Positions 13,226-50,879 of a stretch of DNA of 64,000 bases are shown here, in pieces. Under the pieces are notes generated by a model. It was not told where the DNA came from. It saw only the letters and a program-made list of their open reading frames with translations, and ran no database searches. Both the position numbers and the translations under genes were made by a program. Numbering within the stretch: position 1 is the stretch's first letter; each line of letters begins with the position of its first letter. The stretch is from Candidatus Limnocylindrales bacterium (GTDB lineage Bacteria; Moduliflexota; Moduliflexia; Moduliflexales; JAUQPW01): positions 124,001 through 188,000 of the forward strand of contig DATMBG010000022.1 of assembly GCA_035559535.1 (NCBI GenBank), given 5' to 3'.

Positions 13226-13653
13226 GAATCCTTCATCCTGAACCATTAACCTCTTATACTCATTTATAAACAGGTGGCTCCTTGGAAGTTAAAAGCCTGA
13301 GGGCCAGGTTTTTTAACCTGATCCCCCTCTCTCATACGCGCCAGGGTAAGCGTGAGATCCCTGAGGAGGGCCCTTAATGCCAAATATCAAACGAGACGTT
13401 GTACGGGCGCAAGGCCTTGCGCCCCTACCTTAGGTTTGCAGGAGAAGGAACTTTGAAGCGAGGTTCCTTTCCCCCTCCCCTTCCTCCCGTTCACGGGGGG
13501 AAGGGACCTGCTGGGGACGCCTTAACCCGGCGCGTATGCCCCCTTCCCCCCCATAAGGGCCAGTCTAAAAAAGATCCCCTTGAAAGCAATCCCCCGCCAG
13601 AACTTTTTCGATAATTTAACAGGTTCGGGTTAATTATTCAGGATGAAGGATTC
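13226..13653. repeat. Repeat-rich interval flanked by 16-bp inverted copies
   Basis: gaatccttcatcctga (13226-13241) and its exact reverse complement (13638-13653) flank about 400 bases. The right copy overlaps the last codons of the cysteine desulfurase. Inside are a perfect 20-bp palindrome (13405-13424) and a C-rich/G-rich inverted segment near 13465-13560. No gene is visible. A similar ccttcatcc unit recurs at 45850-45890. Confidence 0.5.
13405..13424. repeat. REP-like palindrome, copy 1
   Basis: Perfect 20-bp palindrome gggcgcaaggccttgcgccc within a gtac...ctac frame. The same outer frame with different inner bases occurs at 59497-59516 and 59524-59542, so arms have changed together. Confidence 0.8.
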
Positions 13654-23102: not shown

Positions 23103-24191
23103 TTAACGCTTAGAATAAAAATGGAGGGTAATATGGGGAAAAGACCAGAGGGCAATATAATCCACATCAAATAACACATTCAGGGATTGGAAAGGGTGTA
23201 GATGGGATAATCCATAAAGGGCCAGAAAAAACAGATTAGCTAAGAGGAGTAGACCCAGAAAATGGGACGGGGAATGTTTGAACTTCCAGAAAGGGTCTCC
23301 CTGGTAATTGGCCGGAGGTCGGATACCAGTTAGGGGATTCGAGCCCTGGGACCTCAGCTCCGAAACCTGGGATTGGGAGTAAAGAACCCTTTCGATACCA
23401 AACAGATACCAGGTTATATAATGATAAAAAATCACAATTTTATTAAAACGGCCGGCAGATACACTGCTTACGATAAATTGATGGTAAAGAAGGACCAGCC
23501 CAATGATTCCTAAAGTATAAGCGGTACTTCGTAGAAAGGGATGCTCTTCTCCCTGGTGGGTTCGATAAAAGGAACTGATTCCCCAAATCAAAGCCACTCC
23601 CAGCAAAGCATAAAATCCCCAGGAGGACAGGCCCCGGTAAAAAGCAGCCAGATCATACTCTGAAGGCGGGACCAGGCCGTTGGTATAATTGGTATACAAC
23701 AGGGCAATAAAAACCAGAATCATAAAAATCCCATGAGCCTGAACTTTTTTATCCAATTTAGTATGCCTGAAATCAGAACTTCGCTGGACATAGAAAACAT
23801 GTTCATCGCGAATCATGTGGATAATAAAATAAACCATGAAAGGGAAGCCCCGGTACTGAATAGGAACCCAACCATAATAGATAACAGGAAAAATAAGGAT
23901 CAAAGGGAAGAAAGTTAAGAAGAAAAAAAGCTTTTTCTTGCGGGTTGTCAGCGTTCTCCTTAAGACATTGTAGTGAAACAAGTAAGAAACACCAAAATGA
24001 ACTTGACTGGTAATCATAAAGAAGACTTCCAGGCTATCAAACCCAAAAAACTTGGCTGTAAGCGACAGGGAAACAAACGTGATCCCCAGACTCAGGAGGA
24101 CATTATCTACAAAGTATTTCTGGGGGTTCCAGGAAAAGGTTTTCTCCTTGAGGATGGGAGAAATCGAGGTTTTTAAAGTCATTTGTTCCAT
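23103..24191 (-). CDS. Polytopic membrane protein, histidine-rich, unknown
   Basis: 362 residues with about eight or nine predicted membrane helices (for example LLSLGITFVSLSLTAKFF, FFFLTFFPLILIFPVIYYG). Histidines recur in or near helices: QVHFGVSYLFHY, IIHMIRDEHVF, FYHYITWYLFGIE, FPHITLHF. This resembles metal-dependent membrane oxygenases or desaturases in style, but I recognise no family. A segment (SQSQVSELRSQGSN, about residues 272-285) is encoded by DNA like the dispersed cagaa/ccagg repeats. It is the last gene of the long minus-strand cluster, 68 bases after the AMP ligase. Confidence 0.7.
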   Translation of the reverse strand: MEQMTLKTSISPILKEKTFSWNPQKYFVDNVLLSLGITFVSLSLTAKFFGFDSLEVFFMITSQVHFGVSYLFHYNVLRRTLTTRKKKLFFFLTFFPLILIFPVIYYGWVPIQYRGFPFMVYFIIHMIRDEHVFYVQRSSDFRHTKLDKKVQAHGIFMILVFIALLYTNYTNGLVPPSEYDLAAFYRGLSSWGFYALLGVALIWGISSFYRTHQGEEHPFLRSTAYTLGIIGLVLLYHQFIVSSVSAGRFNKIVIFYHYITWYLFGIERVLYSQSQVSELRSQGSNPLTGIRPPANYQGDPFWKFKHSPSHFLGLLLLANLFFLALYGLSHLHPFQSLNVLFDVDYIALWSFPHITLHFYSKR

Positions 24192-24259
24192 ACGCTTAGT
24201 CGGTTAAGAGCTTTTGATAAAAGCCCCCATCGCCCGATTGAAATTTATCAAAAGTTCTT

Positions 24260-25768
24260 TTAACCGATTTCCCTTAACTCTCTTTTTTTAATCTTACCTG
24301 TTTCCGTTCTGGGGAGTTTATCACAGATAATAATATATTTGGGTCTTTTGATCGGACTTAAGCGGCCGACACAGAATCTCAGGATTTGATCAGAATCTAA
24401 ATAGAAACCTTCTTTAGGAACTATATAAGCCTGAATGGCTTCTCCTAACCACTCATCCGGTACCCCGACTACGGCACAATCTGCAACCCCCTCATGACCG
24501 ATCAAAACAGCCTCAATCTCAGAGGGGTGGATATTTTCGCTGCCACTCTTAATCAGGTCTTTCTGACGTCCTGCCAGGTATAAATACCCTTCTTCATCCA
24601 TCCATCCCAGATCTCCGGTATGAATTCCATCTTCTTTAAAAACCTGCCGGGTTGCTTCTTCATTTTTATAATACCCTATGGCACTATGATCACACCGAAT
24701 AACAATCTCCTTTTCGGACCCTTCCTCTCCCTTTGCAAGGTGAACCTGCACCTCCGGAATAATGCGCCCACAAGATCCCGCTTTTTCTTGAAGTTTTTCC
24801 GGAGGTAAAACTGTGACCAAACCCACTTCGGTCAGGCCATAGGTCAGATAAATATCTACCCGGGGAAAAGCCTCACGAAGGTTCCGGATCAGTTGGGGCG
24901 TAACCTGGCCTGCTCCGATTCGGAAGTATCTTAAAGAAGTTAAGGTATAGCGCCGAATATCGCCCCGGGATAATAAGGTGTGGTAAACTGTTGGTACCGC
25001 CGAGAGTCCCGTAACTTGCTCTGCTTCCATGGAGGCCAGAACCGAGTTCGGGGAAAGAAAATTCCGCTCCAGAATTACGGTTGCCCCAACCATGAGATGG
25101 GCCAGAAGAAAAATTTTATTCATCCCGAAAAACAAAGGAAGCACAAGGGAAGTTCGATCTCTGGCCGAGATTTGGAAGTATTTAATATTCAGCTCCGCAT
25201 TCCGGATAAGATTCTTGTGGGGAAGAAGTACACCTTTAGGAATTCCTGTAGTTCCGGAAGTGTAATTGATACAGGCAATAGAAGGCGAATCCCCTCCTCT
25301 ACTTCGATTCTCCAGTTCTTCCCTTCTTCCCTTCTCCCCTTCTCTGATTTTCCCTTTCTCCCCCTCATCGGTTAACAAAATGGTAAGAGATTCAAACTGA
25401 CTTGAAATCTGCTCCCATAAATTCCTTTGAATCTTCTCGGTAATAAGCATTTTAATCTCGCATTGCCGGACAATACGGATGATTTCCTCGGGTTTAAAGG
25501 ACGGATTTATGTCTACAACGATCCCTCCCACCTTCCAGATGGCAAAAAGGGCCAGAACCAGCTCCGGGGAGTTCCAGCAACAAATTCCGATTCTTTCCCC
25601 CGGCGTTACTCCTCTTCGAATAAGATCATGAGCCAGCCGATTTGTTTGTTCTTCAAGTTCTCGATAGGTGTAACGTATTCCTTGTGAAACCAGTGCTGTT
25701 GCTTCTGGAAACCGATTTGCGCTCTGACTCAGTAAGTCTGCTAAGGTTTTTATAGACATAGAGTTCAT
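24260..25768 (-). CDS. AMP-forming acyl/aminoacyl ligase (ANL superfamily), ligase 1
   Basis: 502 residues. Activates a carboxylic acid as an adenylate and loads it on a thiol. Motifs: P-loop NYTSGTTGIPKGVLLPH, YLTYGLTEVGLVT, LYLAGRQKDLIKSGSENIHP, and the C-terminal catalytic lysine in LPRTETGKIKKREL. Just before the P-loop there is a charged insert (EGEKGKIREGEKGRREELEN, about residues 145-164) encoded by purine-rich repeat DNA. With two carrier proteins in the cluster, loading a carrier rather than CoA is likely (inference). It lies 58 bases downstream of AsnB copy 1. Confidence 0.9.
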   Translation of the reverse strand: MNSMSIKTLADLLSQSANRFPEATALVSQGIRYTYRELEEQTNRLAHDLIRRGVTPGERIGICCWNSPELVLALFAIWKVGGIVVDINPSFKPEEIIRIVRQCEIKMLITEKIQRNLWEQISSQFESLTILLTDEGEKGKIREGEKGRREELENRSRGGDSPSIACINYTSGTTGIPKGVLLPHKNLIRNAELNIKYFQISARDRTSLVLPLFFGMNKIFLLAHLMVGATVILERNFLSPNSVLASMEAEQVTGLSAVPTVYHTLLSRGDIRRYTLTSLRYFRIGAGQVTPQLIRNLREAFPRVDIYLTYGLTEVGLVTVLPPEKLQEKAGSCGRIIPEVQVHLAKGEEGSEKEIVIRCDHSAIGYYKNEEATRQVFKEDGIHTGDLGWMDEEGYLYLAGRQKDLIKSGSENIHPSEIEAVLIGHEGVADCAVVGVPDEWLGEAIQAYIVPKEGFYLDSDQILRFCVGRLSPIKRPKYIIICDKLPRTETGKIKKRELREIG

Positions 25769-25826
25769 AACAGACTATCTCTCTCAACCCGGTGGGGAAG
25801 GAGAATAAGGTAAAGAAATTCTGATC

Positions 25827-27680
25827 TTACCCATTAAAAACTTTGTGCCACCGTTCCAGAAAATAAAGACGGATCAAAGCATAATGTTTCTGGGTAAAAA
25901 GACCCGATGAACCTTCCTGGAAAGATGCCAGGAAAGCGTCTAACTTTTCTCTATTGAAATAAGCCTCGATGGCGAGGTGGGGTTGTTTCAAAGAAGTCAG
26001 CATGGCGTTTATTAATTCCTGGACCTCGAAGGGAGGAGGCATGGGACTTTTCTTGCGCATAAGAATGGTTTCCGGAAAATCCGGGAGATATTTCCGAATC
26101 ATGCGTTTTAAAAAATGTTTTTCATCGGATTTTTGAGTTTTGATCTCACCGGGAAGATTTAGTATCCACTCTACCAACCGATGGTCCAGAAAGGGAACGC
26201 GAACTTCTACCGAGGAGGCCATACTATGACGGTCTTCAATCTCCAGCATTTCGTGAAGATGCAATTTAACGAATAAATAACTTAGTTTGTTAAAGAAATC
26301 CGATGTTTTAGCCCTGGCCAGGTACTCTTCAAACCGGTCCTGATGGACTTCCCAGTAGAAGGTTTCCCATCGAAATTCATCTGTAACCAGGGTCTCTAAG
26401 AAGTCCACAGCACTGATGGGATAATCCGGTTTTCTGGGATCTGTACGCCAGATCCAGGGAAAGAACGTGGTATTCTGACGATCCTTCCGTTGTAACCAGT
26501 AGTAATAACCCCCAAAAAGTTCGTCGGCCCCCTGTCCGGATAAAAGAACCCGAACCTTTTGAGAAGCTTCCTGATTTAACAGAAAGTGACCATATTCCGA
26601 GAGGGTAACCAGAGGTTTTTCCCGATGCCAGATCATTCGATCAATGGCTTCACAAAGTGAGTCTGTAGGGAGAATGTAGAGATGATGATCCGTCTTAAGC
26701 TTTTGGGCGAAAAGCGATGCATAATACGTATCATCCCCCCGGACTTCCCCTACGATACGATGAGGGTTCTGTTTAAAAACTTCGGTATTTCGGGTATATC
26801 CAATGTTAAAGGTCTTTAAAAAAGGATGATACTTCAGGGCGAGTGCCGTTACAAGGCTTGAATCCAGACCTCCACTTAAACAGGCACCCAATGGGACATG
26901 GGAAAATAACTCCTGGTGGACAGACTCATCCAAAAAATTGTAGAGGTTCTCCAGGTCATCCTCGTCCTGATTTCGGGTTCTCGACGTCCAATATCCCATT
27001 TCTGAAAAAGGCACATCCCAGTACTCTCGAATTTTTAAACCCTTTCTGGAAACTTCCAGAAAATGGCCCGGACTCAAGGCCTGAATACCCCGAAATAGGG
27101 TGTTAGGAACCAAAGGAAACCCGCAGAACAGATACTCTGCTATGGCTTCGGGGTTTACTTCTACCGGGTGATCGGATTGGGCTAAGATAGCCTTGATTTC
27201 TGAGGCAAAGACAAATTTACCGGATTTCATCCCATAGAACAAAGGCTTTATTCCCAGACGATCCCGTGCCAGAAAAAGTTTCTCCTGCTTCTCATCCCAT
27301 ATGGCAAAGGCAAACATTCCATTTAAAAGATGGAGGCAATCGATTCCATAGACTTCATACGCCCGAAGAATAACTTCCGTATCGCTTCCGGTTACAAAAC
27401 AATATCCACGTTTTTCTAAATTTTCTCGGATCTCTCGATGATTGTAAATTTCTCCATTAAATACAATCCACAGGGACTGTTCCCGGTTCGATAGAGGCTG
27501 AGCCCCTGATTCTAAATCGATAATGGAAAGTCGCTGACTGCCCAGTCCTATAAACTCTCGAAAGTAAATTCCATTCTGATCCGGTCCTCGATGAGCCAGG
27601 GCACGATTCATAGCTCGAAGGGTCTCAGGATCGACCTTTTCTGAGTGATCGGTGATAAAAATTCCAGAAATTCCACACAT
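25827..27680 (-). CDS. AsnB-type glutamine amidotransferase, copy 1
   Basis: 617 residues. The N-terminal Ntn glutaminase domain starts MCGISGIF, with catalytic Cys2 fixing the start. The C-terminal synthetase domain has the PP-loop CLSGGLDSSLVTAL near residue 270. The family uses ATP to form an acyl-adenylate and then transfers glutamine-derived ammonia, giving asparagine or another amide. Three copies of this family lie within 15 kb, one more than ordinary asparagine supply needs, so at least two probably amidate a pathway intermediate. It lies between ligase 1 and a DUF2889-like gene. Confidence 0.92.
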   Translation of the reverse strand: MCGISGIFITDHSEKVDPETLRAMNRALAHRGPDQNGIYFREFIGLGSQRLSIIDLESGAQPLSNREQSLWIVFNGEIYNHREIRENLEKRGYCFVTGSDTEVILRAYEVYGIDCLHLLNGMFAFAIWDEKQEKLFLARDRLGIKPLFYGMKSGKFVFASEIKAILAQSDHPVEVNPEAIAEYLFCGFPLVPNTLFRGIQALSPGHFLEVSRKGLKIREYWDVPFSEMGYWTSRTRNQDEDDLENLYNFLDESVHQELFSHVPLGACLSGGLDSSLVTALALKYHPFLKTFNIGYTRNTEVFKQNPHRIVGEVRGDDTYYASLFAQKLKTDHHLYILPTDSLCEAIDRMIWHREKPLVTLSEYGHFLLNQEASQKVRVLLSGQGADELFGGYYYWLQRKDRQNTTFFPWIWRTDPRKPDYPISAVDFLETLVTDEFRWETFYWEVHQDRFEEYLARAKTSDFFNKLSYLFVKLHLHEMLEIEDRHSMASSVEVRVPFLDHRLVEWILNLPGEIKTQKSDEKHFLKRMIRKYLPDFPETILMRKKSPMPPPFEVQELINAMLTSLKQPHLAIEAYFNREKLDAFLASFQEGSSGLFTQKHYALIRLYFLERWHKVFNG

Positions 27681-27725
27681 AACTGAAAGTCTAAAGTTTA
27701 AAATTCGAAGCCTTTTAGACTTTCC

Positions 27726-28214
27726 TCAATTTGAGGCTTCAAACTTTGGACTTTGGACTGAATAGGCGACGCAGGTGTTTCGAACCGAAAGTTGATGTTG
27801 CTCCAGGAAAGCTATTTTCTCTTCAGGGGGATACGGCTGTTGGGGATTACCCATCTCCATACACTTTTTGGCTAAAAGTCCTTGAATCGAGATATGACAG
27901 GCATCCAATATAAGGTTGGTGAGATGAGTACATCCTTCCTTTCCACCGATTTGCCGCTCCAGAAGAAAGGTCAGACCTGGCCTGATCTGGAGTCCCACGC
28001 ATTTAGATATCTGAGTCAAAGCTGCGGGACAGATAGGATAGGGAGTTTGATTTATCCGGGGTTTAATCGAAACGATCACCAGATCCGGATACTGGAAGAT
28101 CACTTCAACCCCCATATCATGGAAAGAATCTTTCATACTTACCGTTACAACCAACCGGTTTTCTAGGTCATCCCAGAGAACTTTATAATCTTTTTTTCGA
28201 TGAAAAAGCTCCAT
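27726..28214 (-). CDS. DUF2889-like protein
   Basis: 162 residues, no signal peptide or membrane segment. Resembles DUF2889 by eye: an N-terminal strand-rich part (LENRLVVTVSMKDSFHDMGV, DLVIVSIKPRINQTPYP) and the family-type block GLTFLLERQIGGKEGCTHLT near residue 90. Several cysteines (PICPAAL, SKCVGLQI, EGCTHL, LDACHI) could bind metal. The biochemical role of the family is not established. It sits between ligase 2 and AsnB copy 1 with spacings of 18 and 45 bases, clearly inside the operon. Confidence 0.7.
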   Translation of the reverse strand: MELFHRKKDYKVLWDDLENRLVVTVSMKDSFHDMGVEVIFQYPDLVIVSIKPRINQTPYPICPAALTQISKCVGLQIRPGLTFLLERQIGGKEGCTHLTNLILDACHISIQGLLAKKCMEMGNPQQPYPPEEKIAFLEQHQLSVRNTCVAYSVQSPKFEASN

Positions 28215-28232
28215 ATTCTCCCATTCTCCCGT

Positions 28233-29825
28233 TCACTTCAATAAAGACCTTTGGGTTTTACCCAACACGGTCTTGGGAAGGGAATCTGAGAATTCAATCA
28301 CTTTAGGTACTTTAAAAGATTCCAGGTAACGGGCGCAGTACCCCATCAGTTCATGGGGATCGGGTGTAAATTTGGGGTCACAAACGACCCAGGCTTTTAC
28401 CACTTCCCCTAAGATTCCGGCTGGATCTGGGATGCCTGTCACCGCAGCTTCTCTAACCGCCGGATGCTTACGCAAGACGGCCTCTATTTCCTCTGGACTG
28501 ATCTTCTCTCCCCCACTGTTAATCAATTCATCGGTACGACCCAGTAAGAAGAGATAGTTTTCTGAGTCTAAGTAGCCATAATCCGGGGTCAACAGAGTTC
28601 CATCGGACCACAAGCATTGTTGCGTAAGATCTGGTCGATTCCAATAACCTTTCATAATCATGGAACTTTTAACCGCCACACGACCCGGTTTGTTAACTCC
28701 TAGGGGTTGACCCTGCTCATCTAAAATCGAAAGTGTTACCCCTGGATAAGGCTGTCCTACGGAACCCGCCTTCCGATCCGGTTCTGTAACTTCCCGGAAA
28801 CACACCCGACTGACCTCTGTAAGACCATAGGTTACAAATAACCGCGTGGTCGGTAAGGCTGTTTTGAGTTGGGTGAGGAGAGAAGGAGGAGCCGGTGAAG
28901 TACCCAGGGTAATATAGCGCAGATGCCTTTGGCATCTTTTCAACAGGGATTCATAGCGATCCATAAAAAGCGTTAATCCACCTGGAACTCCGGAGAATCC
29001 CGTGACCTGTTCCCCATGAAATTGCTTTAAAACCTGGGCCGGGTAGGTCAAATTCTTTGCCAGAATTAAAGTTCCCCCTGCTCGCAAACAACCGTCTATC
29101 TCCCGGAGTCCGTATAGATGGAAAAGAGGGACCAGAATCCCCATTCGATCCCGAGAAGTTAATTTCAGAAACTCTTTTCCGGTTTCCGCAATAACCTCTA
29201 AATTTCCGTGGGTCAGCATAACCCCCTTCGGTTGTCCGGTTGTTCCACTGGTATAAATAATAGCGGCCAGATCGTCTTCGATGTCCTTCTCCCGCCCTTC
29301 TATATTCCTTTGCATGCCGGAGGAATTGAGGGCATAGGCGCCAGGATAAAGCTTGGCTGAAGGCGTAACCGGAGGATGAGGATGCGAGACCCCAAAGGGG
29401 CGGGAATATGAAGAGAGAAAGAAAATTTCCACCTCACCTTCTCCCAGAGTTATGGGATCCCCAAAACCCAAAGAAATCAGATCTCCGGCATAGGAATGGA
29501 TTCGCTTTTCCAGGAACAACGCTTTGGGTGAGCAATCTTCAAGGGTATGGGTTAAGGCCTCTAAGGTCGTGGAGGGATTTAAAGGAACGACCACTCCCCC
29601 AACTTGAAGGATAGCAAGATAAGCGATCACAAAGTCTGGAGAATTATCCAGGAGCAGACAAATGCGATCTCCTGGAGCTATTCCGTTCTGTTGTAAAATA
29701 CCGGCAAGTCGATCCACCAAAGTATCTAACTGCGCATAGGTAAGACGATACTCTTCCTGGACTACTGCCTCTTTTCCTGGAGAAAGAGCCCTGTATTGTT
29801 TTAAAAACTCGTGTAATCTGGCCAT
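28233..29825 (-). CDS. AMP-forming acyl/aminoacyl ligase (ANL superfamily), ligase 2
   Basis: 530 residues. Motifs: AIIYTSGTTGQPKGVMLTH, LFVTYGLTEVSRVCF, LFLLGRTDELINSGGEKISP, and the C-terminal lysine in LPKTVLGKTQRSLLK. It starts 2 bases after the carrier protein at 29828-30121, so it is the natural partner that loads that carrier. A stretch before the P-loop (about residues 145-185, including HPHPPVTPSAKLYPGAYALN) is encoded by dispersed-repeat-like DNA and sits in the same loop as the insert in ligase 1. The acid substrate is unknown. Confidence 0.9.
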   Translation of the reverse strand: MARLHEFLKQYRALSPGKEAVVQEEYRLTYAQLDTLVDRLAGILQQNGIAPGDRICLLLDNSPDFVIAYLAILQVGGVVVPLNPSTTLEALTHTLEDCSPKALFLEKRIHSYAGDLISLGFGDPITLGEGEVEIFFLSSYSRPFGVSHPHPPVTPSAKLYPGAYALNSSGMQRNIEGREKDIEDDLAAIIYTSGTTGQPKGVMLTHGNLEVIAETGKEFLKLTSRDRMGILVPLFHLYGLREIDGCLRAGGTLILAKNLTYPAQVLKQFHGEQVTGFSGVPGGLTLFMDRYESLLKRCQRHLRYITLGTSPAPPSLLTQLKTALPTTRLFVTYGLTEVSRVCFREVTEPDRKAGSVGQPYPGVTLSILDEQGQPLGVNKPGRVAVKSSMIMKGYWNRPDLTQQCLWSDGTLLTPDYGYLDSENYLFLLGRTDELINSGGEKISPEEIEAVLRKHPAVREAAVTGIPDPAGILGEVVKAWVVCDPKFTPDPHELMGYCARYLESFKVPKVIEFSDSLPKTVLGKTQRSLLK

Positions 29826-29827
29826 GT

Positions 29828-30121
29828 TTATTGAATCCCAAACTTTTCTCCAAGGTACTTCATTACGGCTTCTAAAGAGCCAAAGTTTTCGGGCATGATA
29901 TCTTCCCCTGGAATTTTGATCTTGCAGAGTTTTTCAATAAACACAACAAAATCCAGAAGAGAAAGGGAATCAAAGATCCCTTGATCGATAAAAGAATCTG
30001 TACTTTGAAGGGTAGTAATCCCCTTCCCCTGTAAAGCCGGCAAACTCAGAATATAATTTTCGAGCGCCTGTGTTACGTTTGTGGGTTGTCTGTTGACGAT
30101 CTTCGGTTGTTCCCGGTCCAA
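29828..30121 (-). CDS. Acyl/peptidyl carrier protein, copy 1
   Basis: 97 residues. The 4'-phosphopantetheine attachment serine is in DQGIFDSLSLLDFVVFIE (about residue 54). The only start in frame is a TTG at 30121, just after a stop. The first 15 residues (DREQPKIVNRQPTN) look encoded by a dispersed repeat, so the true start may be later or unusual. It lies 2 bases before ligase 2 and about 76 bases after the MBOAT gene. It would hold the activated acyl group as a thioester after modification by a phosphopantetheinyl transferase such as that at 37986-38777. Confidence 0.85.
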   Translation of the reverse strand: MDREQPKIVNRQPTNVTQALENYILSLPALQGKGITTLQSTDSFIDQGIFDSLSLLDFVVFIEKLCKIKIPGEDIMPENFGSLEAVMKYLGEKFGIQ

Positions 30122-30197
30122 TTTTTATCGTCCGTTATCTGTTATCTGCCGTTTTCGGCTATAGAAGAAAAACAACCGACAACAGGTAACGGGTCCA

Positions 30198-31430
30198 TCA
30201 ACCAAAAAATAGACGCTGATAAGCCTGGAGGGTTACTTCCAACGGCTTACCGGTGATTCCATCCCAAAAACTTCGATGAATAAGGGCTATAAACGAAAAG
30301 GTAAGGGCAGTTTTTAGAGCTAAAAGGAGGATTCTTATCCCAGGACTCTTCACTTTAAGAGAAAATTCTTTTATCCATGGAGTCTGGGAAATCTTTGAAA
30401 TAACGGCAATGGCTAAACCAAAGGATCCAAAGGCCAGGGTTAGTTGAATGACAGCATCCCACGTTATGGCCGGTGTTACCAGAAGATGCCAGAGACCGCT
30501 GACTAAAAAGGTCGTTAGGATTTTAGCAGTTATCTGCTTATGCCCCCAGAAGGGATAAAAAACATGGGTCATGAGCCATCGATAAGTCGAAATGTTGGAA
30601 GTTTTCCAATATTGAACAGGGCTGGAGGACAGAAGTGGATTTGCAAAATTTTCATAAAGATTAAATCCCAGAAGTCGAGACAGGGCAATCGCCATATCTG
30701 TAAAACCGGAAAAAGCCCAATAAAAGCGAATTAAAAGCAGGCAAAAAGTACCCCATAGGAAAAGTCTCGGGTCCAGGTGTTGAAGAAAAGGATGGGGGAC
30801 AGAACCCTCCGCCCATTGTTGCAGTTTATTGTAGAGATTCTGAGAGTAAGGAGTCAAAACAAAAAACTTAATCCCTCCCCAGGTCATTTTAAGGAGGTTA
30901 TAAGGAACCAGTTGGGACCAATTAGAAATCTGAGGTTGATAACTCTTATAAAAATCATTGAACGAAACCACAGGTCCGGCGAATAGGGTAGGAAGAAAAA
31001 ATATATAAAGGAGAAACTGATTGAATCGATCCCAACCGGTTAAAGAGGTTTTAGGACGTTTACTGAGGACAAAATCTATACTTCGAAGCAGGAAAAAGGC
31101 CTCTATTCCCTGACGACCCCAGAAGACATACTTGATGGCTGGTCGGGGGAATTGGTATTTAAGGAAAACAAAAGCGACTAAAACCCCCAAAACCAAAATG
31201 AACTTCTGATTTCGGGTTCGGTTTGTTTCCCCAATGAGATAGATGGTCAGGGCCGTCAGGGTAAATATTAGAAAATTTAACGGGGGAAACAGCCATAAAA
31301 GGGCTCCCAGGCTAATAAAGAGCATGGAGTATTCACGAACCTGGAATTTTCCCGTCCATTCCGAGGAAGGCTTTGCCGGAGTTACGTAAAAAATCGGAGT
31401 CGTTGTCAGGAGACCGGTAAGATTTTTCAT
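30198..31430 (-). CDS. MBOAT-family membrane acyltransferase
   Basis: 410 residues with about ten membrane helices. Recognised by FLPTLFAGPVVSFNDF, YWAFSGFTDMAIALSRLLGF, the block NPLLSSSPVQYWKTSNIS and the catalytic histidine in LVSGLWHLLV. DltB and AlgI share this layout. They take an acyl group from a carrier or CoA in the cytoplasm and deliver it to an acceptor across or in the membrane. Here it overlaps the upstream AsnB copy 2 by 4 bases (coupled translation) and sits near two carrier proteins and two ligases, so transfer of a carrier-bound acyl group is likely. The acceptor is unknown. Confidence 0.88.
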   Translation of the reverse strand: MKNLTGLLTTTPIFYVTPAKPSSEWTGKFQVREYSMLFISLGALLWLFPPLNFLIFTLTALTIYLIGETNRTRNQKFILVLGVLVAFVFLKYQFPRPAIKYVFWGRQGIEAFFLLRSIDFVLSKRPKTSLTGWDRFNQFLLYIFFLPTLFAGPVVSFNDFYKSYQPQISNWSQLVPYNLLKMTWGGIKFFVLTPYSQNLYNKLQQWAEGSVPHPFLQHLDPRLFLWGTFCLLLIRFYWAFSGFTDMAIALSRLLGFNLYENFANPLLSSSPVQYWKTSNISTYRWLMTHVFYPFWGHKQITAKILTTFLVSGLWHLLVTPAITWDAVIQLTLAFGSFGLAIAVISKISQTPWIKEFSLKVKSPGIRILLLALKTALTFSFIALIHRSFWDGITGKPLEVTLQAYQRLFFG

Positions 31431-33244
31431 ACCTTAAAAACCCGATGCAAAAGTTCCAGGGTTAAAAGATACATGGAAATCTGCCACTGGGTCAGCAGAT
31501 CCACCCCTTCAAACTCATTTTTTCTTTCCAAGAAATCCTCTAATCGAGAAGGGTCGAAATAGGAAATAGCCCTTGAGTGGGGGCTTAAAAGGAGATCCCG
31601 GGTGAGCCGGAGTTGGTTGAACACCGAGGGTGGATCCCGGGGTATGGGCATGTGGGTTTTTTTTCGGTAAAGGATGGAATCTGGGAGAAAGCCCCGGAGC
31701 ATTTTTTTGAAGATATATTTACTCTGACCGTTTTTAACTTTTAATTCTGAGGGCATAGGCGCCAGGAGTTCAACCAATCGGTGGTCCAGAAAGGGAGGTC
31801 GTGTTTCCACCCCAAAAGCCAGGGAGGTCCGATCATGGAACTCCAAAAGCTCCAGAAGGAAGAACTTTAAATACAGATAAAGGGCCTGGTATAAGATATC
31901 CTGGTTAGAAACCCGGATCAGATGATCCGACAACTTTTGACCGAAGAGCTCTTCGGGTCTGATCGTCTTGCGAAACTCCTGGGAAAAGAGCTTGAGCATA
32001 ACTTTCCAGGAAGGGGCCCAGGGAAAGTAAGTAATTTGTCGGGTTTTTAAAATATCATCAAGACCCAGACCTCGCGATCCCAGATATCCGGCCAGGAGTT
32101 CATCGGCCCCTTCTCCACAGAGAACTACGGTGGCATAATCTTTAAGCTTTTCATAGAGGAGGTACATGGTGGCAGCCCCTTTATTAAAGGGTCTTTCTAA
32201 ATGCCAGGTCAATCGTTCCAGGGTGGAAAAATAGGCTTCAGGGGAAATTAAAAATTCATGATGTTTCGTTCCCAACGTTTGGGCGACGATTCTGGCATAG
32301 GTAGCATCATGGTCTTCCCCTTTCCAGGGATTTGGAAAGTCAATGGTAAAAGTTTGCAAAGAACCCGATAGCATCTGGCCGGCCCAGGTTGCGATGCTGC
32401 TGGAATCTGTACCTCCACTGAGTAAAACACCTAAAGGAACCTCTCCGACCAACCGAAGCCGGACGGCATCTTTAAGGAGTTCCATGAGGTGCTGCCCGTA
32501 ATACTTTTCCATCTCTTCCCCTTTAAGAGGGATGGGTTGGGTTGTCTCCGGAGAAGGAATTTCCCAATATTTTTTCAAACGATAATGAAAACCGGGTCTA
32601 CCGGTGTGAGCCATGGCGGTTAAGGTACAACCAGGAGGAAGGGTCCATATCCCTTTAAACAGGGTATGGGCTTCTAAAAGGGCTCCACAAAGGAGTACCT
32701 CAGCAACAGCTTCCAGATTAATATCCGGGGAAATGGCAGGATGTTGTAAAATAGCTTTAGCTTCCGATGCAAAAATAAATTGCCCATCGGCTATGGTATA
32801 GTGAAGAGGAACAATTCCCATCCGATCCCGGGCCAGAAAAAGTTTTTTTCCGGGATGATCCCAAATGGCAAAGGCAAACTGGCCGTTAAATTGTTCTACA
32901 CAATCCTCTCCGAAAGCTTCATAAGCATGTAAAACGACTTCCGTATCTGAGTCTGTTTTAAAACGATATCCCCGGCTTTTCAGAAGACGTTGAAGCTGTC
33001 GATAATTAAAAATTTCCCCATTATAGGTGATCCAGATCGAGCCATCTTCATTGGACATGGGTTGACGCCCGTATTCACGATCGATAATGGACAATCGCCG
33101 GTTTCCCAAACCTACCCGGTTGTTAAGATAGACGCCTACATCGTCAGGACCTCGATGACGCTGGATTTCATTCATTTTTTCCAGGGTTTCTACCTCAACA
33201 GGCTTATCTAAAGCAAAATTAAAGATTCCACTAATACCACACAT
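31427..33244 (-). CDS. AsnB-type glutamine amidotransferase, copy 2
   Basis: 605 residues, start fixed by MCGISGIF with catalytic Cys2. Synthetase PP-loop VLLSGGTDSSSIATW near residue 277 (Thr where copies 1 and 3 have Leu or Ile). It is closest in style to copy 1 and clearly shorter than copy 3. Its stop overlaps the MBOAT start by 4 bases, and it follows carrier protein 2 by 3 bases. That spacing argues for joint action on the carrier-bound or free intermediate rather than general asparagine synthesis. Confidence 0.92.
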   Translation of the reverse strand: MCGISGIFNFALDKPVEVETLEKMNEIQRHRGPDDVGVYLNNRVGLGNRRLSIIDREYGRQPMSNEDGSIWITYNGEIFNYRQLQRLLKSRGYRFKTDSDTEVVLHAYEAFGEDCVEQFNGQFAFAIWDHPGKKLFLARDRMGIVPLHYTIADGQFIFASEAKAILQHPAISPDINLEAVAEVLLCGALLEAHTLFKGIWTLPPGCTLTAMAHTGRPGFHYRLKKYWEIPSPETTQPIPLKGEEMEKYYGQHLMELLKDAVRLRLVGEVPLGVLLSGGTDSSSIATWAGQMLSGSLQTFTIDFPNPWKGEDHDATYARIVAQTLGTKHHEFLISPEAYFSTLERLTWHLERPFNKGAATMYLLYEKLKDYATVVLCGEGADELLAGYLGSRGLGLDDILKTRQITYFPWAPSWKVMLKLFSQEFRKTIRPEELFGQKLSDHLIRVSNQDILYQALYLYLKFFLLELLEFHDRTSLAFGVETRPPFLDHRLVELLAPMPSELKVKNGQSKYIFKKMLRGFLPDSILYRKKTHMPIPRDPPSVFNQLRLTRDLLLSPHSRAISYFDPSRLEDFLERKNEFEGVDLLTQWQISMYLLTLELLHRVFKV

Positions 33245-33247
33245 TTT

Positions 33248-33502
33248 TTAACCTCTTATCCTCTTACGTTGGATATAATCACAAATGGTATGGATACTCT
33301 GAAAATTTTCAGGTTGAAACTCTGCAGGAGATACAGTCAGATCAAATTGCCCTTCCAGAAAGTCGATCAAGTGGATCAAAGTCAAGGAGTTAAGAATACC
33401 GGTTTGCAAAAGCGGAGTATTTTTATCTAATTTTTCAACCTCAGCTTCCGGTAAAATCTGTTCGGCCAGGAATTTTCTAATTATTTTCTCCACTTCATCC
33501 AT
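33248..33502 (-). CDS. Acyl/peptidyl carrier protein, copy 2
   Basis: 84 residues. The phosphopantetheine serine is in LLQTGILNSLTLIHLIDFLE (about residue 38), with Asn where most carriers have Asp before Ser. The segment FDLTVSPAEFQPENFQSI is similar in style to DltC-type and other amino-acid carriers. ATG start. It lies 3 bases before AsnB copy 2 and 4 bases after the threonine-synthase-like gene, so these are translated as one unit. Confidence 0.88.
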   Translation of the reverse strand: MDEVEKIIRKFLAEQILPEAEVEKLDKNTPLLQTGILNSLTLIHLIDFLEGQFDLTVSPAEFQPENFQSIHTICDYIQRKRIRG

Positions 33503-33506
33503 AGGT

Positions 33507-34625
33507 TTAATCCGTTAAATTTAATAATACCCCTTCTTCAGGAGGAATGGCCCTCTGATCGGCCAACTTCCTTAAAGCAGCCACCGTGGTAGCTGCTGTA
33601 TAACCGCAGTCTATTTTTTCTAACTGAAACAGCAGCGCTTTGGCCTCTTTAATCTCCGTTTCTGTAACGCTGATAAAGGTACCCTTTGTTTCTTGAACCA
33701 ATCGATAAATATAAGGATAGCTGGTTACAGGATTGCCTCTTAGAATGGCTTTGGCGATTCCCTTAGGGTTTTTAACGATATGATGTTCCCGAATCACCGG
33801 GGATCCCTCTTCGAAGGCCTTAACCATAGGACAACAACCCTCTTGCTGGACACAAACCATTCGGGGAATATATCGGATTCTCCCCAAAGTCTGAAATTCT
33901 TTAGCCCCCTTGTAGGTTCCATAAACCCCCATGGCACTGCTGACGGCTTGAAAATACCATCGGATCTCCACAGGAACCTGATCAACGGCTTCCAGGAAGG
34001 CCAATTTGAGTCCTTCCCGTCGAGCCGGATTAAAAAAACCCGCCTCGAAGGGTAAATGATGGTGGAAAGCATATTCTCGTGCCTGATTAAAAGCTTCTGC
34101 AAAAGTCCTTCCTGTCAAAACATGGAGTAGAACACCGGGATTAAAATCCGAAAACCGAACCCGCTCCTGGAATTCTCCCCCAATGAAAAGATGCATTTTA
34201 AAATAGGGATATTTGAGAATTCCATATGCCAGGGCATTGGAGCTATTCCCGGTCGAAGAACTTACAAACTCTGTAATCTGAAGCTCTTTAAAAAAAGATA
34301 AAACCACAGCAGCCATTCGATCTTTTGTTGTACCGGTCGGATTTCGAGATTCGACTTTTAAGAAAACCTGTTTCAGCCCCAAGGCTTCTCCAAGAGCTTT
34401 CGCATGTACACAGGGGGTATTACCTTCTCCTAAAGGAAGGAGGTTTTGAGAATCCTGGATAGGAAGCAAATCAAAATATTTTTCCAGGGAGTGCGGCGAA
34501 TCGTAGATCTTGACCCGAGATAAATCGTAATAAATATCCACAAGACCCCCACAATAGGTACACTTAGGAGTATACGCATGGGGAAAGGTTTTTTGGCATT
34601 GGTTACAGCGATGAGTTAGTTTCAA
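33507..34625 (-). CDS. Threonine synthase-like PLP enzyme
   Basis: 372 residues of the fold-type II PLP family. A zinc ribbon at the N-terminus has CNQC and CTYC (threonine synthase style). The Schiff-base lysine is in NPTGTTKDRMA near residue 101, and the phosphate-binding loop is SSTGNSSNALAY near residue 122. The frame opens with TTG at 34625. Position in the operon, before carrier 2 and AsnB copy 2, suggests it makes an amino acid for this pathway, possibly by beta- or gamma-replacement. It could also be plain ThrC, but the non-standard GTTKDR and the neighbourhood favour a dedicated role. Confidence 0.85.
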   Translation of the reverse strand: MKLTHRCNQCQKTFPHAYTPKCTYCGGLVDIYYDLSRVKIYDSPHSLEKYFDLLPIQDSQNLLPLGEGNTPCVHAKALGEALGLKQVFLKVESRNPTGTTKDRMAAVVLSFFKELQITEFVSSSTGNSSNALAYGILKYPYFKMHLFIGGEFQERVRFSDFNPGVLLHVLTGRTFAEAFNQAREYAFHHHLPFEAGFFNPARREGLKLAFLEAVDQVPVEIRWYFQAVSSAMGVYGTYKGAKEFQTLGRIRYIPRMVCVQQEGCCPMVKAFEEGSPVIREHHIVKNPKGIAKAILRGNPVTSYPYIYRLVQETKGTFISVTETEIKEAKALLFQLEKIDCGYTAATTVAALRKLADQRAIPPEEGVLLNLTD

Positions 34626-34734
34626 CTTTGTATTTTTACTCTACCCTTGCAAGGGTTGATAAATCCTTAGCAGGTAAAGGAAATTCAGCACTTAAAATTT
34701 TTGCAAACGTAGAGTACTTTTATCTAACTCCTCC

Positions 34735-34822
34735 CCCAATCCTTCTCCCATATCAAGGGTGGGGGGGAAATCCACAGATTACCCCTATCTCCTCAAGAGA
34801 AAGGACTGGGGGTTAAGGAATT
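34735..34822. repeat. Inverted repeat between two cluster genes
   Basis: A C-rich arm (ctcccccaatccttctcc) and a G-rich arm (gagaaaggactgggggtt) form an imperfect hairpin. It lies in the 195-base gap between the LarA-like and threonine-synthase-like genes and may attenuate transcription. Confidence 0.5.
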
Positions 34823-36104
34823 ATACCTGTTCTACAACCGTGACATTTCCAAAGGGAATCCCATAAGTTGAAGGATTGGATTTTCCAAGCTTTTCCAATG
34901 CGAGTTTTTTTGCTTCTTCCAAATGAGTAGCCGGAATAAAGCCCAGGAGTTCTACCTGATCTTTCGGACATCGGGAGATCAAGATCACCTGAATTCGCTG
35001 CAAAATCTCTTTAAGCAGGTAAGAATTATGCCCGGTGAGATCGTATTGGGTCTTTACAGCTTTGGCTAATTCCGGGAGAGAGGAAAATTTTGCCCAACGC
35101 AAGAAGCCTTCCTTAATACCCTGGGGACAGGCCGCCAGGAGGATGAAGACCCCGCCATCGACCACACACGTATGGGTATTCATAAGGGTTTTGAGTGCTT
35201 GCATGAAGGAAATATCATAAGGATGACCTCCACAACTGGCCATGGCCAGTTCTGCCTTTTCTTTAAAGGAAACCTTAAAAAGGTTATCTACCACCTGACA
35301 CCCCATGACGTGGGCAGAAACGGGATGACCCGCATAGACGTGGGTTAATTCATGGTTTAAATTCACGAGGGTATTTACCAGGAAACTAGGTCGAAATAAA
35401 GCGGCTGCTTCCAGCATGTCCAGATGGACAGGATTTCCTTCCAGACAACCATTCCTGGCCAGGATATTTCGCGGTTGAACTTCATTACCGGACATAACCA
35501 GTTTGTGATTATGTAAAATCGTTTCATATCCCGATACCCCAGGTAAGACAGCTTTACGACCGCCCGTGAATCCGGCAAAATAATGATGGGTAATCCGGCC
35601 TGTCAAAATCTTAATATCCGCTTCATAAGCCAGTCGATTGACCTCGATGGCATTCCCAAAGGAGGTTTTTCCCAAATAAACATGGTTTTCTTTGTTCATG
35701 CAGTCGTGCCCTATCACTCGGATTTCTTTATCAAAGTGAGGCCCCAAGATGATATTCATATCTTCGGTTGTAAACCGCTCATGAGTCCCCGTTGCAATAA
35801 TAACCGTGATATCCTGCTTACGGATTCCGGCCCGGAGCAGTTCCCGGATCAAAAGCGGCATAAAAATATCGCCCCGGGTTACACGGTCCTTACCGGATAC
35901 CAGAATTACAGCCGTTCGCCCAGATTTAGCCAATTCATATAGGGGTTCCCTTTCAATGGGTTTTTGAAGGGCTTTTTCTACTAAAAAGTCGGGGGGATGG
36001 GCAGGGGAAACGGAACGCGGCGTGAGAATGCCCAGAAAATTTCTTTGGGGAACCTCTGTTTGTACAACTTCAGAGCCATAACCTAACCGGATAATCTCAA
36101 ACAT
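34821..36104 (-). CDS. LarA-like nickel-pincer racemase/epimerase
   Basis: 427 residues of the LarA family, which interconverts the stereoisomers of alpha-hydroxy acids with a nickel-pincer cofactor. Signs: GTHERFT (first His), THHYFAGFTGGRKAVLPGVS (His and pincer Lys) and ILHNHKL (His). A GGGAGGA precedes the ATG. No larB, larC or larE genes occur in the window, so the cofactor must be made elsewhere. It is the first gene of the minus-strand cluster, 195 bases before the next. It may supply a hydroxy acid to ligase 1 or 2, but could be independent. Confidence 0.85.
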   Translation of the reverse strand: MFEIIRLGYGSEVVQTEVPQRNFLGILTPRSVSPAHPPDFLVEKALQKPIEREPLYELAKSGRTAVILVSGKDRVTRGDIFMPLLIRELLRAGIRKQDITVIIATGTHERFTTEDMNIILGPHFDKEIRVIGHDCMNKENHVYLGKTSFGNAIEVNRLAYEADIKILTGRITHHYFAGFTGGRKAVLPGVSGYETILHNHKLVMSGNEVQPRNILARNGCLEGNPVHLDMLEAAALFRPSFLVNTLVNLNHELTHVYAGHPVSAHVMGCQVVDNLFKVSFKEKAELAMASCGGHPYDISFMQALKTLMNTHTCVVDGGVFILLAACPQGIKEGFLRWAKFSSLPELAKAVKTQYDLTGHNSYLLKEILQRIQVILISRCPKDQVELLGFIPATHLEEAKKLALEKLGKSNPSTYGIPFGNVTVVEQV

Positions 36105-37985: not shown

Positions 37986-38777
37986 ATGGAAGATATCCCC
38001 ATCCAGGACCTGTTGGAGGGGGCATCCAGGGCAAATCCCTTTTCTCTCTGGTTTCCTTTACCGGAGGTCCTTCTATTGGGAAATGACGAAGTCCATGTCT
38101 GGCGTGCGACCCTGAATGTAGAGATTTCGTATCTACACAACCTGCAGCAACTTCTCTCGGCGGATGAGCAGGTCCGGGCCGGGCGTTTTTACTTTCAGAA
38201 GGATCGTGAACGCTTTATCATCACACGGGGATTGTTAAGGAGGATCCTGGGACGTTATCTGGAGAGGGAACCGGGCCAATTGCAATTTGGCTATGGACCC
38301 TATGGAAAGCCTTATCTCACAGGAGAATTTAGCTACAGTAGATTGCGTTTCAACTTAGCTTATTCCCAGGAGCTTGCCCTCTACGCCATTACACAAGGTC
38401 GTGAAGTTGGGATAGATATTGAATATATCCGACCTCATCCGGCCAATATGCAGATAGCGCATCGGTTCTTTTCACCCTGCGAAGTTATGGCTTTAAAGGC
38501 CCTTCCTTTCCATCTGCAGCAAGAAGCATTCTTTAATTGCTGGACTCGCAAAGAAGCTTATATAAAGGCCAGAGGAAAGGGTCTTTCGTTTCCTTTGAAT
38601 CAATTCTCTGTATCCCTGGCACCCGGCGAGCCTGCCGCTCTACTCAATGTCCTGGAAGATCCCCAAGAAACCTCCCGTTGGTCACTTCAGACGCTGGAAC
38701 CGGGTTCCGGCTACGTGGCAGCTCTTGCCGTAGAAGGACAGGATTGGCGGCTTAAATGTTGGCAGGTACAGGGGTAG
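37986..38777 (+). CDS. 4'-phosphopantetheinyl transferase (Sfp type)
   Basis: 263 residues. Transfers phosphopantetheine from CoA to the serine of carrier proteins. The Sfp-type core is REVGIDIEYIRPHP (magnesium-binding Asp and Glu), FFSPCEVMALKAL and WTRKEAYIKARGKGLSFPL. An AAGGAGGAG precedes the ATG by about 12 bases. It is the natural activator of the two carrier proteins at 29828 and 33248, about 4.5-8 kb away. A separate promoter and orientation mean it could also serve other pathways. Confidence 0.92.
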   Translation: MEDIPIQDLLEGASRANPFSLWFPLPEVLLLGNDEVHVWRATLNVEISYLHNLQQLLSADEQVRAGRFYFQKDRERFIITRGLLRRILGRYLEREPGQLQFGYGPYGKPYLTGEFSYSRLRFNLAYSQELALYAITQGREVGIDIEYIRPHPANMQIAHRFFSPCEVMALKALPFHLQQEAFFNCWTRKEAYIKARGKGLSFPLNQFSVSLAPGEPAALLNVLEDPQETSRWSLQTLEPGSGYVAALAVEGQDWRLKCWQVQG

Positions 38778-38848: not shown

Positions 38849-40837
38849 TTACTCTACACTCCGGACAGGACTATCTAAATACTCCCGACACCAGAGTTCA
38901 AAAATCAAAAGGGCCCAGAGGTGTTGGCTGTAATCTTTAAGGCCTTTTTGGTGTTCCTCGATAAGCAATCGGATATAATCCACGTTGAAAAGGCCGCGTT
39001 CCCGTAAGCGCTCTCCTAACAAGATATCTTCAAGTAAAGGTTTGAGATCTGTTCGAAACCACTCCAGGAGAGGTACTCCAAATCCATGTTTTCTTCTATG
39101 AATAATTTGAGAGGGAAGGATGCCGTGCAAGGCATGTTTGAAGATGTATTTGGTCGTAAGACCTTTCACTTTAAGATCTGAAGGGATCTGAGCCGCAAAT
39201 TCTACCAGTTCATGGTCCAGAAAAGGAACCCGTCCTTCCAGTGAAACTGCCATGGTCATTCGATCCTCCTTGACCAAAAGATCATCCGGAAGGAGCGTAT
39301 GAAAATCGGCATATAGAGCTTTATCCAGATCCGACAGGCTGGAGGCCTTTCGATAATATTGAGTAATAATTTCGTCTGAAGGACGTAATCCTTTAAAATG
39401 GGGAGAGGAAGGATTATAGAGGGCTTGCTTCATATCCTCGGTGAAGAAGGAAATGGTGGTGATATGTCGCAAATTAGGGGGTAAGTTACGGCATTCCAGA
39501 AATCTTTTAAAAAACAGAAAATATTCCCCAAGACTGGAAGTTCGAGAAACGGGCAGATGCTTTGAAATTTTCTCAAAGTAGTGTTGAAGCATGATGGGAA
39601 TTCGGCTGTAGTATCGAATCAAATTATCGATTAAATAACGTCGGTAGCCTCCGAAAATTTCATCGCCTCCCGTTCCTGAAAGGGCTACAATTACCTGTTC
39701 TCGAGCTAATCTGGCCAGATAATAGGTGGGAATGGCAGAAGGATCCGCAAAGGGTTCATCAAAATGCTTTATAAGCAAAGGAATAATATCAATGGCCCGG
39801 GGCTCTACCTCGAATTCGTAGTGTTCTGTGGCAAATCGTTCGGATACTTGTTTGGCATAGCGTCGTTCGTCATAATATCCGGCATTTTTAAATCCAATGG
39901 AGAAAGTCTTAATGGGTTGAATTTTACTGGCAAAGGCCACAATAGCACTGGAGTCGATTCCACCGCTCAGGAGGATTCCCACGGGGACATCGCTTACAAG
40001 ATGGCGTTTAACAGATTTTTGTAAGAGTTCTATCAACCCTTCCGAGTAAAACTTTTCATCCTTTGGACTTACAGGCAGTCTTTTAACCTCTGGGACCCTA
40101 TCGGATCGATCTTCTTCACTTGGCCCTGAGGTAGGAGGAGTCGATCTATCCACTCGACTCCCAACGGGCAAACTCCAATATCTCTGGAGGAAGATTTCAC
40201 CGTCTTTGTACTCCAGAACATGACCCGGCTGGAGTTTTTTGATTCCTTTAAATATGGTATCCGGGCCGGGAATGTAGAGATAGCTCAGATAATTGTGCAA
40301 AGCCTGAAAGTTAAGTTCTCTTTTAAAGGAAGGATCTTGAAGCAGGGACTTAATCTCAGAAGCAAAACAAAGTTTTTCCCGATCGATACGGTAAAACAGA
40401 GGTTTTATACCTATTCGGTCTCGGGCTAAAAAGAAAGCATGTTCCCGACTATCCCACAAGGCAAAAGCAAACATTCCGTAAAGTTCACGGATACACTCTT
40501 TGCCCAGGTCTTCATAGAGGTGGACGATGACTTCTGTATCACTGAGGGTTTTAAACTTATGATTGCGTTTTTCTAACTGTTCCCGAAGCTCCTTATAGTT
40601 ATAAATCTCCCCGTTGAATACGACCCATACCGACCGATTTTCATTGCTGATGGGTTGATGACCTCCCGTTACATCAATGACACTTAATCTCCGGACCCCC
40701 AGACCAACCTGACCGGACATGTAATAACCTTCTTCATCAGGTCCACGGTGTTTAAGAACCGAAGTCATCCGGCGTACAAGGTTTTTATCGATTTCTTTTT
40801 TTTCATTGAAATTAAGGACACCACATATACCGCACAT
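38849..40837 (-). CDS. AsnB-type glutamine amidotransferase, copy 3
   Basis: 662 residues. MCGICGVLNFNEKKEID fixes the start, with Cys2. Synthetase PP-loop GILLSGGIDSSAIVAF near residue 291. Longer than copies 1 and 2, with an insert between the domains that reads GSRVDRSTPPTSGPSEEDRS (about residues 220-240). It resembles the AsnB branch found in exopolysaccharide or exosortase regions, or ordinary asparagine synthetase. It lies 7 bases downstream of BamD and may be read from that operon. Confidence 0.92.
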   Translation of the reverse strand: MCGICGVLNFNEKKEIDKNLVRRMTSVLKHRGPDEEGYYMSGQVGLGVRRLSVIDVTGGHQPISNENRSVWVVFNGEIYNYKELREQLEKRNHKFKTLSDTEVIVHLYEDLGKECIRELYGMFAFALWDSREHAFFLARDRIGIKPLFYRIDREKLCFASEIKSLLQDPSFKRELNFQALHNYLSYLYIPGPDTIFKGIKKLQPGHVLEYKDGEIFLQRYWSLPVGSRVDRSTPPTSGPSEEDRSDRVPEVKRLPVSPKDEKFYSEGLIELLQKSVKRHLVSDVPVGILLSGGIDSSAIVAFASKIQPIKTFSIGFKNAGYYDERRYAKQVSERFATEHYEFEVEPRAIDIIPLLIKHFDEPFADPSAIPTYYLARLAREQVIVALSGTGGDEIFGGYRRYLIDNLIRYYSRIPIMLQHYFEKISKHLPVSRTSSLGEYFLFFKRFLECRNLPPNLRHITTISFFTEDMKQALYNPSSPHFKGLRPSDEIITQYYRKASSLSDLDKALYADFHTLLPDDLLVKEDRMTMAVSLEGRVPFLDHELVEFAAQIPSDLKVKGLTTKYIFKHALHGILPSQIIHRRKHGFGVPLLEWFRTDLKPLLEDILLGERLRERGLFNVDYIRLLIEEHQKGLKDYSQHLWALLIFELWCREYLDSPVRSVE

Positions 40838-50856: not shown

Positions 50857-50879
50857 CTTGTCTCCTATCTATCACGACT

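Follow-up and report, generated by a model that had tools for sequence, protein, structure and literature searches.

Layout and conservation of the operon

In the window, by which we mean the whole 64,000-nucleotide stretch of DNA that was analysed, eleven uninterrupted open reading frames lie in close order on the minus strand at 23103-36104. Read in the direction of transcription, they begin with a LarA-family nickel-pincer 2-hydroxyacid racemase/epimerase (34821-36104, 427 aa, Pfam Lar_N 207 bits) and a threonine-synthase-like PLP enzyme (PALP; 33507-34625, 372 aa, with an N-terminal CxxC...CxxC, Pfam PALP 149 bits), followed by carrier protein 2 (ACP2; 33248-33502, 84 aa, PP-binding 26 bits), the glutamine-dependent amidotransferase AsnB2 (31427-33244, 605 aa, with Cys2, SGGTDSS and GEGADE) and an MBOAT acyltransferase (30198-31430, 410 aa, Pfam MBOAT 55 bits). 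Next come carrier protein 1 (ACP1; 29828-30121, 97 aa, PP-binding 20.2 bits, marginally under the cut-off of 20.8), AMP-forming ligase 2 (lig2; 28233-29825, 530 aa, AMP-binding 273 bits), a DUF2889 protein (27726-28214, 162 aa, Pfam DUF2889 66 bits), the glutamine-dependent amidotransferase AsnB1 (25827-27680, 617 aa; both AsnB proteins match Pfam Asn_synthase and GATase), AMP-forming ligase 1 (lig1; 24260-25768, 502 aa, AMP-binding 272 bits) and an orphan, histidine-rich multi-pass membrane protein (23103-24191, 362 aa). The first-pass annotation had placed eleven close-set minus-strand genes with these identities here; the open reading frames agree with it, and so does Pfam for ten of the eleven names, with LarA recognised as Lar_N/LarA_C. 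Outside the operon lie a gene for an Sfp/HetI-type PPTase (37986-38777, plus strand) and, adjoining the operon region, a third AsnB gene of exopolysaccharide (EPS) type, AsnB3 (38849-40837).

The spacing of the genes is 195 bases between LarA and PALP, 4 between PALP and ACP2, 3 between ACP2 and AsnB2, -4 (an overlap) between AsnB2 and MBOAT, 76 between MBOAT and ACP1, 2 between ACP1 and lig2, 18 between lig2 and DUF2889, 45 between DUF2889 and AsnB1, 58 between AsnB1 and lig1 and 68 between lig1 and the membrane protein. By consensus matching only, no minus-strand terminator-like site was found in these ten gaps, and one was found at 23005-22982, just 3' of the last gene. Gaps of -4 to +195 bases that are free of terminator-like sites, together with the recurrence of a LarA-PALP-ACP-ligase core in another family (see below), bear out the earlier view of the locus as one unit: the eleven genes are a real, coherent operon.

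The congener G001 (MAG JAUQPW01, 'bacterium isolate JZ-2.bins.100') carries the whole block at 82-98% amino-acid identity and without internal stops. Against this congener, dN/dS ranges from 0.03 (PALP) to 0.31 (DUF2889) across all eleven genes, indicating that every gene of the operon is under purifying selection. The genes flanking the block are also syntenic in the congener, so block synteny alone is insufficient proof of a single unit; independent support for the unit comes from the core that recurs in another family. The full gene combination was seen in this genus only, where it joins two smaller modules that are found elsewhere. When genome contigs were scanned with the MBOAT, JAUQPW010000007.1 of the congener MAG was the sole match, and alignment of PALP against viral contigs gave no match. 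Plasmid matches to PALP and MBOAT were discarded, as they were just ordinary threonine synthases and AlgI-type MBOATs.

The first-pass annotation knew of no named pathway with this set, and no named cluster was matched in the searches that we ran; nor did the literature search return a paper that combines MBOAT, asparagine synthase, acyl carrier protein and gene cluster. The annotation had also considered that the order might prove to be that of an already named locus, such as an exosortase or siderophore locus. The whole order was not found in either, but an XrtA/exosortase locus does contain the ACP-AsnB-ligase sub-module.

Two of the eleven proteins gave little to build on. The orphan membrane protein was seen in its own genus only, among 385 genomes; its sole Pfam match, EamA, is below the cut-off, no family scores above cut-off, and 11 of its histidines are kept in the congener. 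The DUF2889 gene of the order relative G003 does not lie in a comparable cluster, and the literature examined gives no function for DUF2889.

A LarA-PALP core shared with a second family

The window LarA keeps six of the seven residues that bind the NPN cofactor or act in catalysis in Mar2 (the equivalents of R74, H108, H171, K181, H197 and K294); the seventh, D72 in LarA numbering, is Gly in the window and Cys in the loci of a second family, f14, described below. It shares the fold, the NPN ligands and most catalytic residues with the Mar2 (malate) and LarAH10 (phenyllactate) racemases, but it falls below the family cut-offs and has D72 replaced. LarC, which is needed for the NPN cofactor, is present in the host genome. 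Mar2 is the best structure match, and malate was considered as the substrate; the window LarA differs at the Mar2 residues assigned to malate binding (PMC7583248), with F, L and N at the positions of K173, Q293 and K351, and we rejected malate on these pocket residues, among which F and N replace the malate-binding K173 and K351. The pocket residues (Y, F, L/I, N) agree between the window and five f14 genomes, which suggests that these enzymes have the same substrate.

The window PALP is 39-47% identical to its f14 counterparts and shows no more than 34% identity, along most of the length, to the rest of the threonine-synthase-like proteins. Judged by sequence, the window and f14 proteins form a subfamily of their own. 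The protein does not reach the NCBIfam threonine synthase cut-offs (145 bits on the best model, where the cut-off is 303; 93 on TIGR00260, where it is 167), and the host genome has three further PALPs. A first search placed the subfamily in three f14 genomes; when 367 genomes around f14 were surveyed next, six genomes of f14 had it, as did the congener, and no others; outside the genus and f14 it was absent among about 750 genomes.

f14 is a single family, unrelated to the window genus. In six genomes of this family the loci consist of LarA, a PALP-ACP fusion, an AMP-forming ligase and a weakly matching LpxL/HtrB-like acyltransferase. G387 and G385 keep this gene order; in G389 the core lies divided between contigs, with LarA unseen there. 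This four-gene operon (L146-L151, L163-L165) is apparently undescribed. LarA with its pocket residues, the PALP subfamily, an ACP and a ligase are thus common to both lineages. The two differ in that PALP and ACP are fused in f14 and separate in the window, and in that an LpxL-like acyltransferase stands in f14 in place of the MBOAT. The fusion suggests that PALP perhaps works on the carrier. In the window operon the ligase genes are parted from ACP2 by other genes, and the f14 clusters examined have no MBOAT, DUF2889 or AsnB gene, so that the linkage of the two operon halves rests on the layout in one genus.

This bears on whether the block could instead be two unrelated operons that happen to adjoin, LarA-PALP-ACP2-AsnB2-MBOAT and ACP1-lig2-DUF2889-AsnB1-lig1-membrane protein. 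The 76-base MBOAT-ACP1 gap would mark the border, and f14 has LarA, PALP and ACP2 of the first part together with a ligase just 23-31% identical to lig1 and lig2. We consider this division highly improbable, as the gap has no terminator-like site, the ACP and AsnB types are duplicated on both sides of it, and the first part would be left without a ligase although the f14 core has one.

Carriers, ligases and AsnB proteins

Both carriers have the attachment serine, in DSL (ACP1) and NSL (ACP2). The host genome encodes two PPTases: the HetI/Sfp-type enzyme, 1.9 kb upstream of LarA (ACPS 72 bits; 4PPT_HetI 256 bits, cut-off 370), and an AcpS-like protein of 129 aa. The neighbouring Sfp-type enzyme probably activates the carriers.

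The Asp that binds the alpha-amino group marks ligases that activate alpha-amino acids. In the A4 region lig1 reads PLFFGMNK and lig2 PLFHLYG, and this Asp is in neither; the one motif argues against a classical alpha-amino acid as the substrate. Low-complexity insertions are seen in lig2 (28233-29825), lig1 (24260-25768) and AsnB3 (38849-40837); those of the two ligases sit directly before YTSGTTG, and that of lig2 is 47 residues longer in G001.

The ligases and ACP2 also supply the grounds for the main rival to the explanation that we favour below, in which the direction of acylation is reversed: the ligases would load the ACPs with fatty acids, and the MBOAT (the LpxL-like enzyme in f14) would acylate a head group that LarA and PALP make and AsnB amidates, giving a lipo-amino or lipo-hydroxy acid as an ornithine-lipid-like lipid of the membrane. 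The top model of both ligases is long-chain fatty acyl ligase, below cut-off, among named models ACP2 scores best on that for the ornithine-lipid ACP (56 bits, under the cut-off of 130), two ligases and two ACPs would suit two chains, and LpxL-family enzymes usually transfer fatty acyl groups from ACP. We nevertheless consider this reading unlikely, since oxalate, ferulate and coumarate ligases head the solved relatives of lig1 and acyl-ACP synthetases come far down that list, and since the PALP-ACP fusion of f14 suggests that PALP acts on a molecule held by the carrier.

The best solved relative of the AsnB proteins is the hydroxyamidotransferase 7ylz (260 bits for AsnB2 and 238 bits for AsnB1, about 31% identity). 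In a tree of 25 sequences, with the 7ylz sequence as printed in the search alignment, a clade with 96/93 support unites AsnB1, AsnB2, 7ylz and two AsnB proteins of secondary metabolism, and AsnB3 stands apart. AsnB1 and AsnB2 thus belong to the clade of the TsnB9/SaHAT enzymes (trichostatin, benzohydroxamate). TsnB9-type SaHAT uses ATP to activate a free acid, not a thioester (PMC13418202), so amidation in the window pathway may precede the carrier-bound step or occur away from it. No TsnB6/TsnB7 amide oxygenase was recognised by Pfam among the eleven genes, which makes plain amidation likelier, although the orphan membrane protein might still be such an enzyme.

The same grouping would fit a diffusible secondary metabolite, an amide compound built by the ligases, ACPs, PALP and AsnB, acylated by the MBOAT and exported or oxidised by the membrane protein, in that AsnB1 and AsnB2 fall with 7ylz and with AsnB proteins that adjoin SbnA/SbnB-like or NRPS genes. 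We regard such a product as quite unlikely, because no condensation domain, thioesterase, regulator or recognised transporter is among the eleven genes, and because the strong constraint and the simple four-gene f14 version look more envelope-like. On a Paenibacillus cellulosilyticus megaplasmid (L170, 4040-9845), adenylating ligase-like, SbnA-like and SbnB-like genes adjoin a hydroxyamidotransferase-like AsnB in what looks like an unannotated small-molecule cluster.

As in the window, XrtA/PEP-CTERM EPS loci contain an ACP-AsnB-ligase sub-module of related sequence. In G267 (L114) the three genes lie beside a WbuX-like protein, PrsT, PrsK and PEP-CTERM-like proteins, and the ligase is 34% identical to lig1 and 32% to lig2. 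Plasmid pRACO34Ab of Rhizobium sp. ACO-34A (L169) carries AsnB, ACP, AMP ligase and NAD synthase in a row; lig1 and lig2 show 32-34% identity to the ligases of G267 and of this plasmid, and ACP2 shows 38% to the Rhizobium carrier. The plasmid module is uncharacterised and is related to that of the G267 XrtA locus. In the surroundings of AsnB genes (20 stretches), the AsnB was closest to the EPS-type AsnB3 and had no carrier or ligase beside it, with the exception of G267. On the XrtA-family models the window proteins score well under the cut-offs (ligases 343 and 278 bits on TIGR03098, cut-off 592; AsnB proteins 432 and 444 bits on the TIGR03108 amidotransferase, cut-off 817), and unlike XrtA loci the window operon has no adjoining exosortase, PrsT/PrsK or glycosyltransferase. 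The exosortases of the host genome are on contig C36 and about 60 kb off on C22.

The MBOAT protein and a possible membrane acceptor

The window MBOAT is the sole MBOAT of its host genome. Aligned with 41 homologues, it shows Asn279 at a position that is His in nearly all of them; His315 is kept, as WHL and not WHG. Its tail reads AYQRLFFG, and the FIYFQF-like C-terminal Tyr motif of most of the homologues is missing. It scores 44 bits on the DltB model TIGR04091 (cut-off 375) and 20.7 bits against the best DltB structure, and by these scores it is only distantly DltB-like. The predicted structures of the MBOAT (pLDDT 35) and the orphan membrane protein (pLDDT 40) were unusable. No AsnB/ACP/ligase cluster was found in 20 MBOAT neighbourhoods; a ligase lies near the MBOAT in G032, and an AsnB several kb away in G337 and G143.

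The first-pass annotation had likened the locus to Dlt, and the likeness holds as far as the joint presence of an AMP-forming ligase, a small carrier and an MBOAT in one operon, as in DltABCD/DltX. It is weakened by the DltB score, by Asn279 and by the lack of a Tyr motif and of a recognised SGNH protein. The window also differs from Dlt in its two ligases without the alpha-amino-acid Asp, its two carriers and its additional LarA, PALP and two AsnB genes. No DltD or DltX-type Tyr microprotein was recognised in the operon among open reading frames of at least 60 aa. A Dlt-like locus with two ligases and without AsnB is found in G121 (L045, 3321-8737): a ligase, a ligase-ACP fusion, a weak-GDSL protein and a DltB-like MBOAT.

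In PatAB and Dlt systems a C-terminal Tyr and an SGNH partner form a relay (PMC12148441). Pfam gave no SGNH/GDSL match among the eleven proteins, and the absence of both the Tyr motif and a recognised SGNH partner suggests that the acyl group goes to an acceptor in or at the membrane and is not exported to a polymer. The missing tail likewise speaks against decoration of an exopolysaccharide with a toolkit derived from XrtA/PEP-CTERM EPS loci, in which the MBOAT would act as in AlgI-type acylation. The relatives of lig1, lig2 and ACP2 beside PrsT, PrsK and PEP-CTERM-like proteins would agree with that origin, as would the EPS-type AsnB3 nearby and the presence of exosortase in the host genome. 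Still, the cluster has no recognised gene for a glycosyltransferase, for export or for an SGNH protein, the exosortases are distant, and the ligase and AsnB scores are far under the XrtA family cut-offs, so we judge EPS decoration very unlikely. Overall, the operon is not a member of the Dlt, XrtA or hydroxamate systems; the kind of chemistry proposed for it, carrier-dependent acyl transfer, is a known one.

Our best explanation, offered tentatively and at somewhat less than even confidence, is that the operon builds a small hydroxy or amino acid on a carrier and that the MBOAT passes it to a membrane lipid or glycolipid. From the observed gene content, motifs and conserved core we infer each chemical step, the order of the steps and the acceptor. 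LarA would set the configuration of a 2-hydroxy acid, and PALP, perhaps working on the carrier, would remodel this acid or its partner. The two ligases would adenylate the acids and load ACP1 and ACP2, both converted to the holo form by the adjoining Sfp-type PPTase, while AsnB1 and AsnB2 would use glutamine and ATP to amidate free carboxylates. Acyl transfer from ACP to a membrane lipid or glycolipid would fall to the MBOAT with its Asn279/His315 pair, and would do without a Tyr/SGNH export relay such as DltBD and PatAB have. The membrane protein and DUF2889 are given no role in this model.

The proposal is supported by the operon layout and purifying selection, the recurrence of the core in f14, the agreement of the LarA pockets, the carrier serines, the adjacent sole Sfp-type PPTase, LarC and the single MBOAT with its conserved His. 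The f14 LpxL/HtrB-like enzyme is of a different type and also moves acyl groups to membrane lipids. MBOATs that take a carrier-bound acyl group are known, as DltB does with DltC (PMC12148441). Against the proposal counts the missing Asp72 equivalent of LarA, and the window MBOAT is remote from characterised ones, so its use of ACP is putative. LpxC is present in both lineages, and lipid A would therefore be an available acceptor; its availability is no evidence of such a role. Possibly, though with doubt outweighing confidence, the loci represent an undescribed envelope modification in which an unusual acyl group is made by LarA together with a PALP linked to the carrier, is amidated by AsnB and is attached to a membrane lipid by a lineage-specific acyltransferase (MBOAT or LpxL-like).

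If true, the proposal would add an acyl-transfer pathway that belongs to none of the Dlt, AlgI and PatA types and would put a nickel-pincer racemase into an anabolic envelope pathway; characterised LarA homologues are discussed mainly as serving the use of hydroxy acids as carbon sources (PMC7583248). It would also indicate that two little-studied bacterial lineages have lipids as yet unknown, and if the envelope-modification reading holds, the lipid so modified would add a new class to those of these bacteria. The LarA-PALP-ACP-ligase core of f14 offers a small, directly testable four-gene target.

Elsewhere in the window, a PP-loop (ThiI/MnmA-like) protein with a C-terminal NFACT-R_2 domain (12165-13214) lies beside a NifS-like cysteine desulfurase (13638-14804), and a small GTPase adjoins an MglB-like GTPase-activating protein at 50353-51464.
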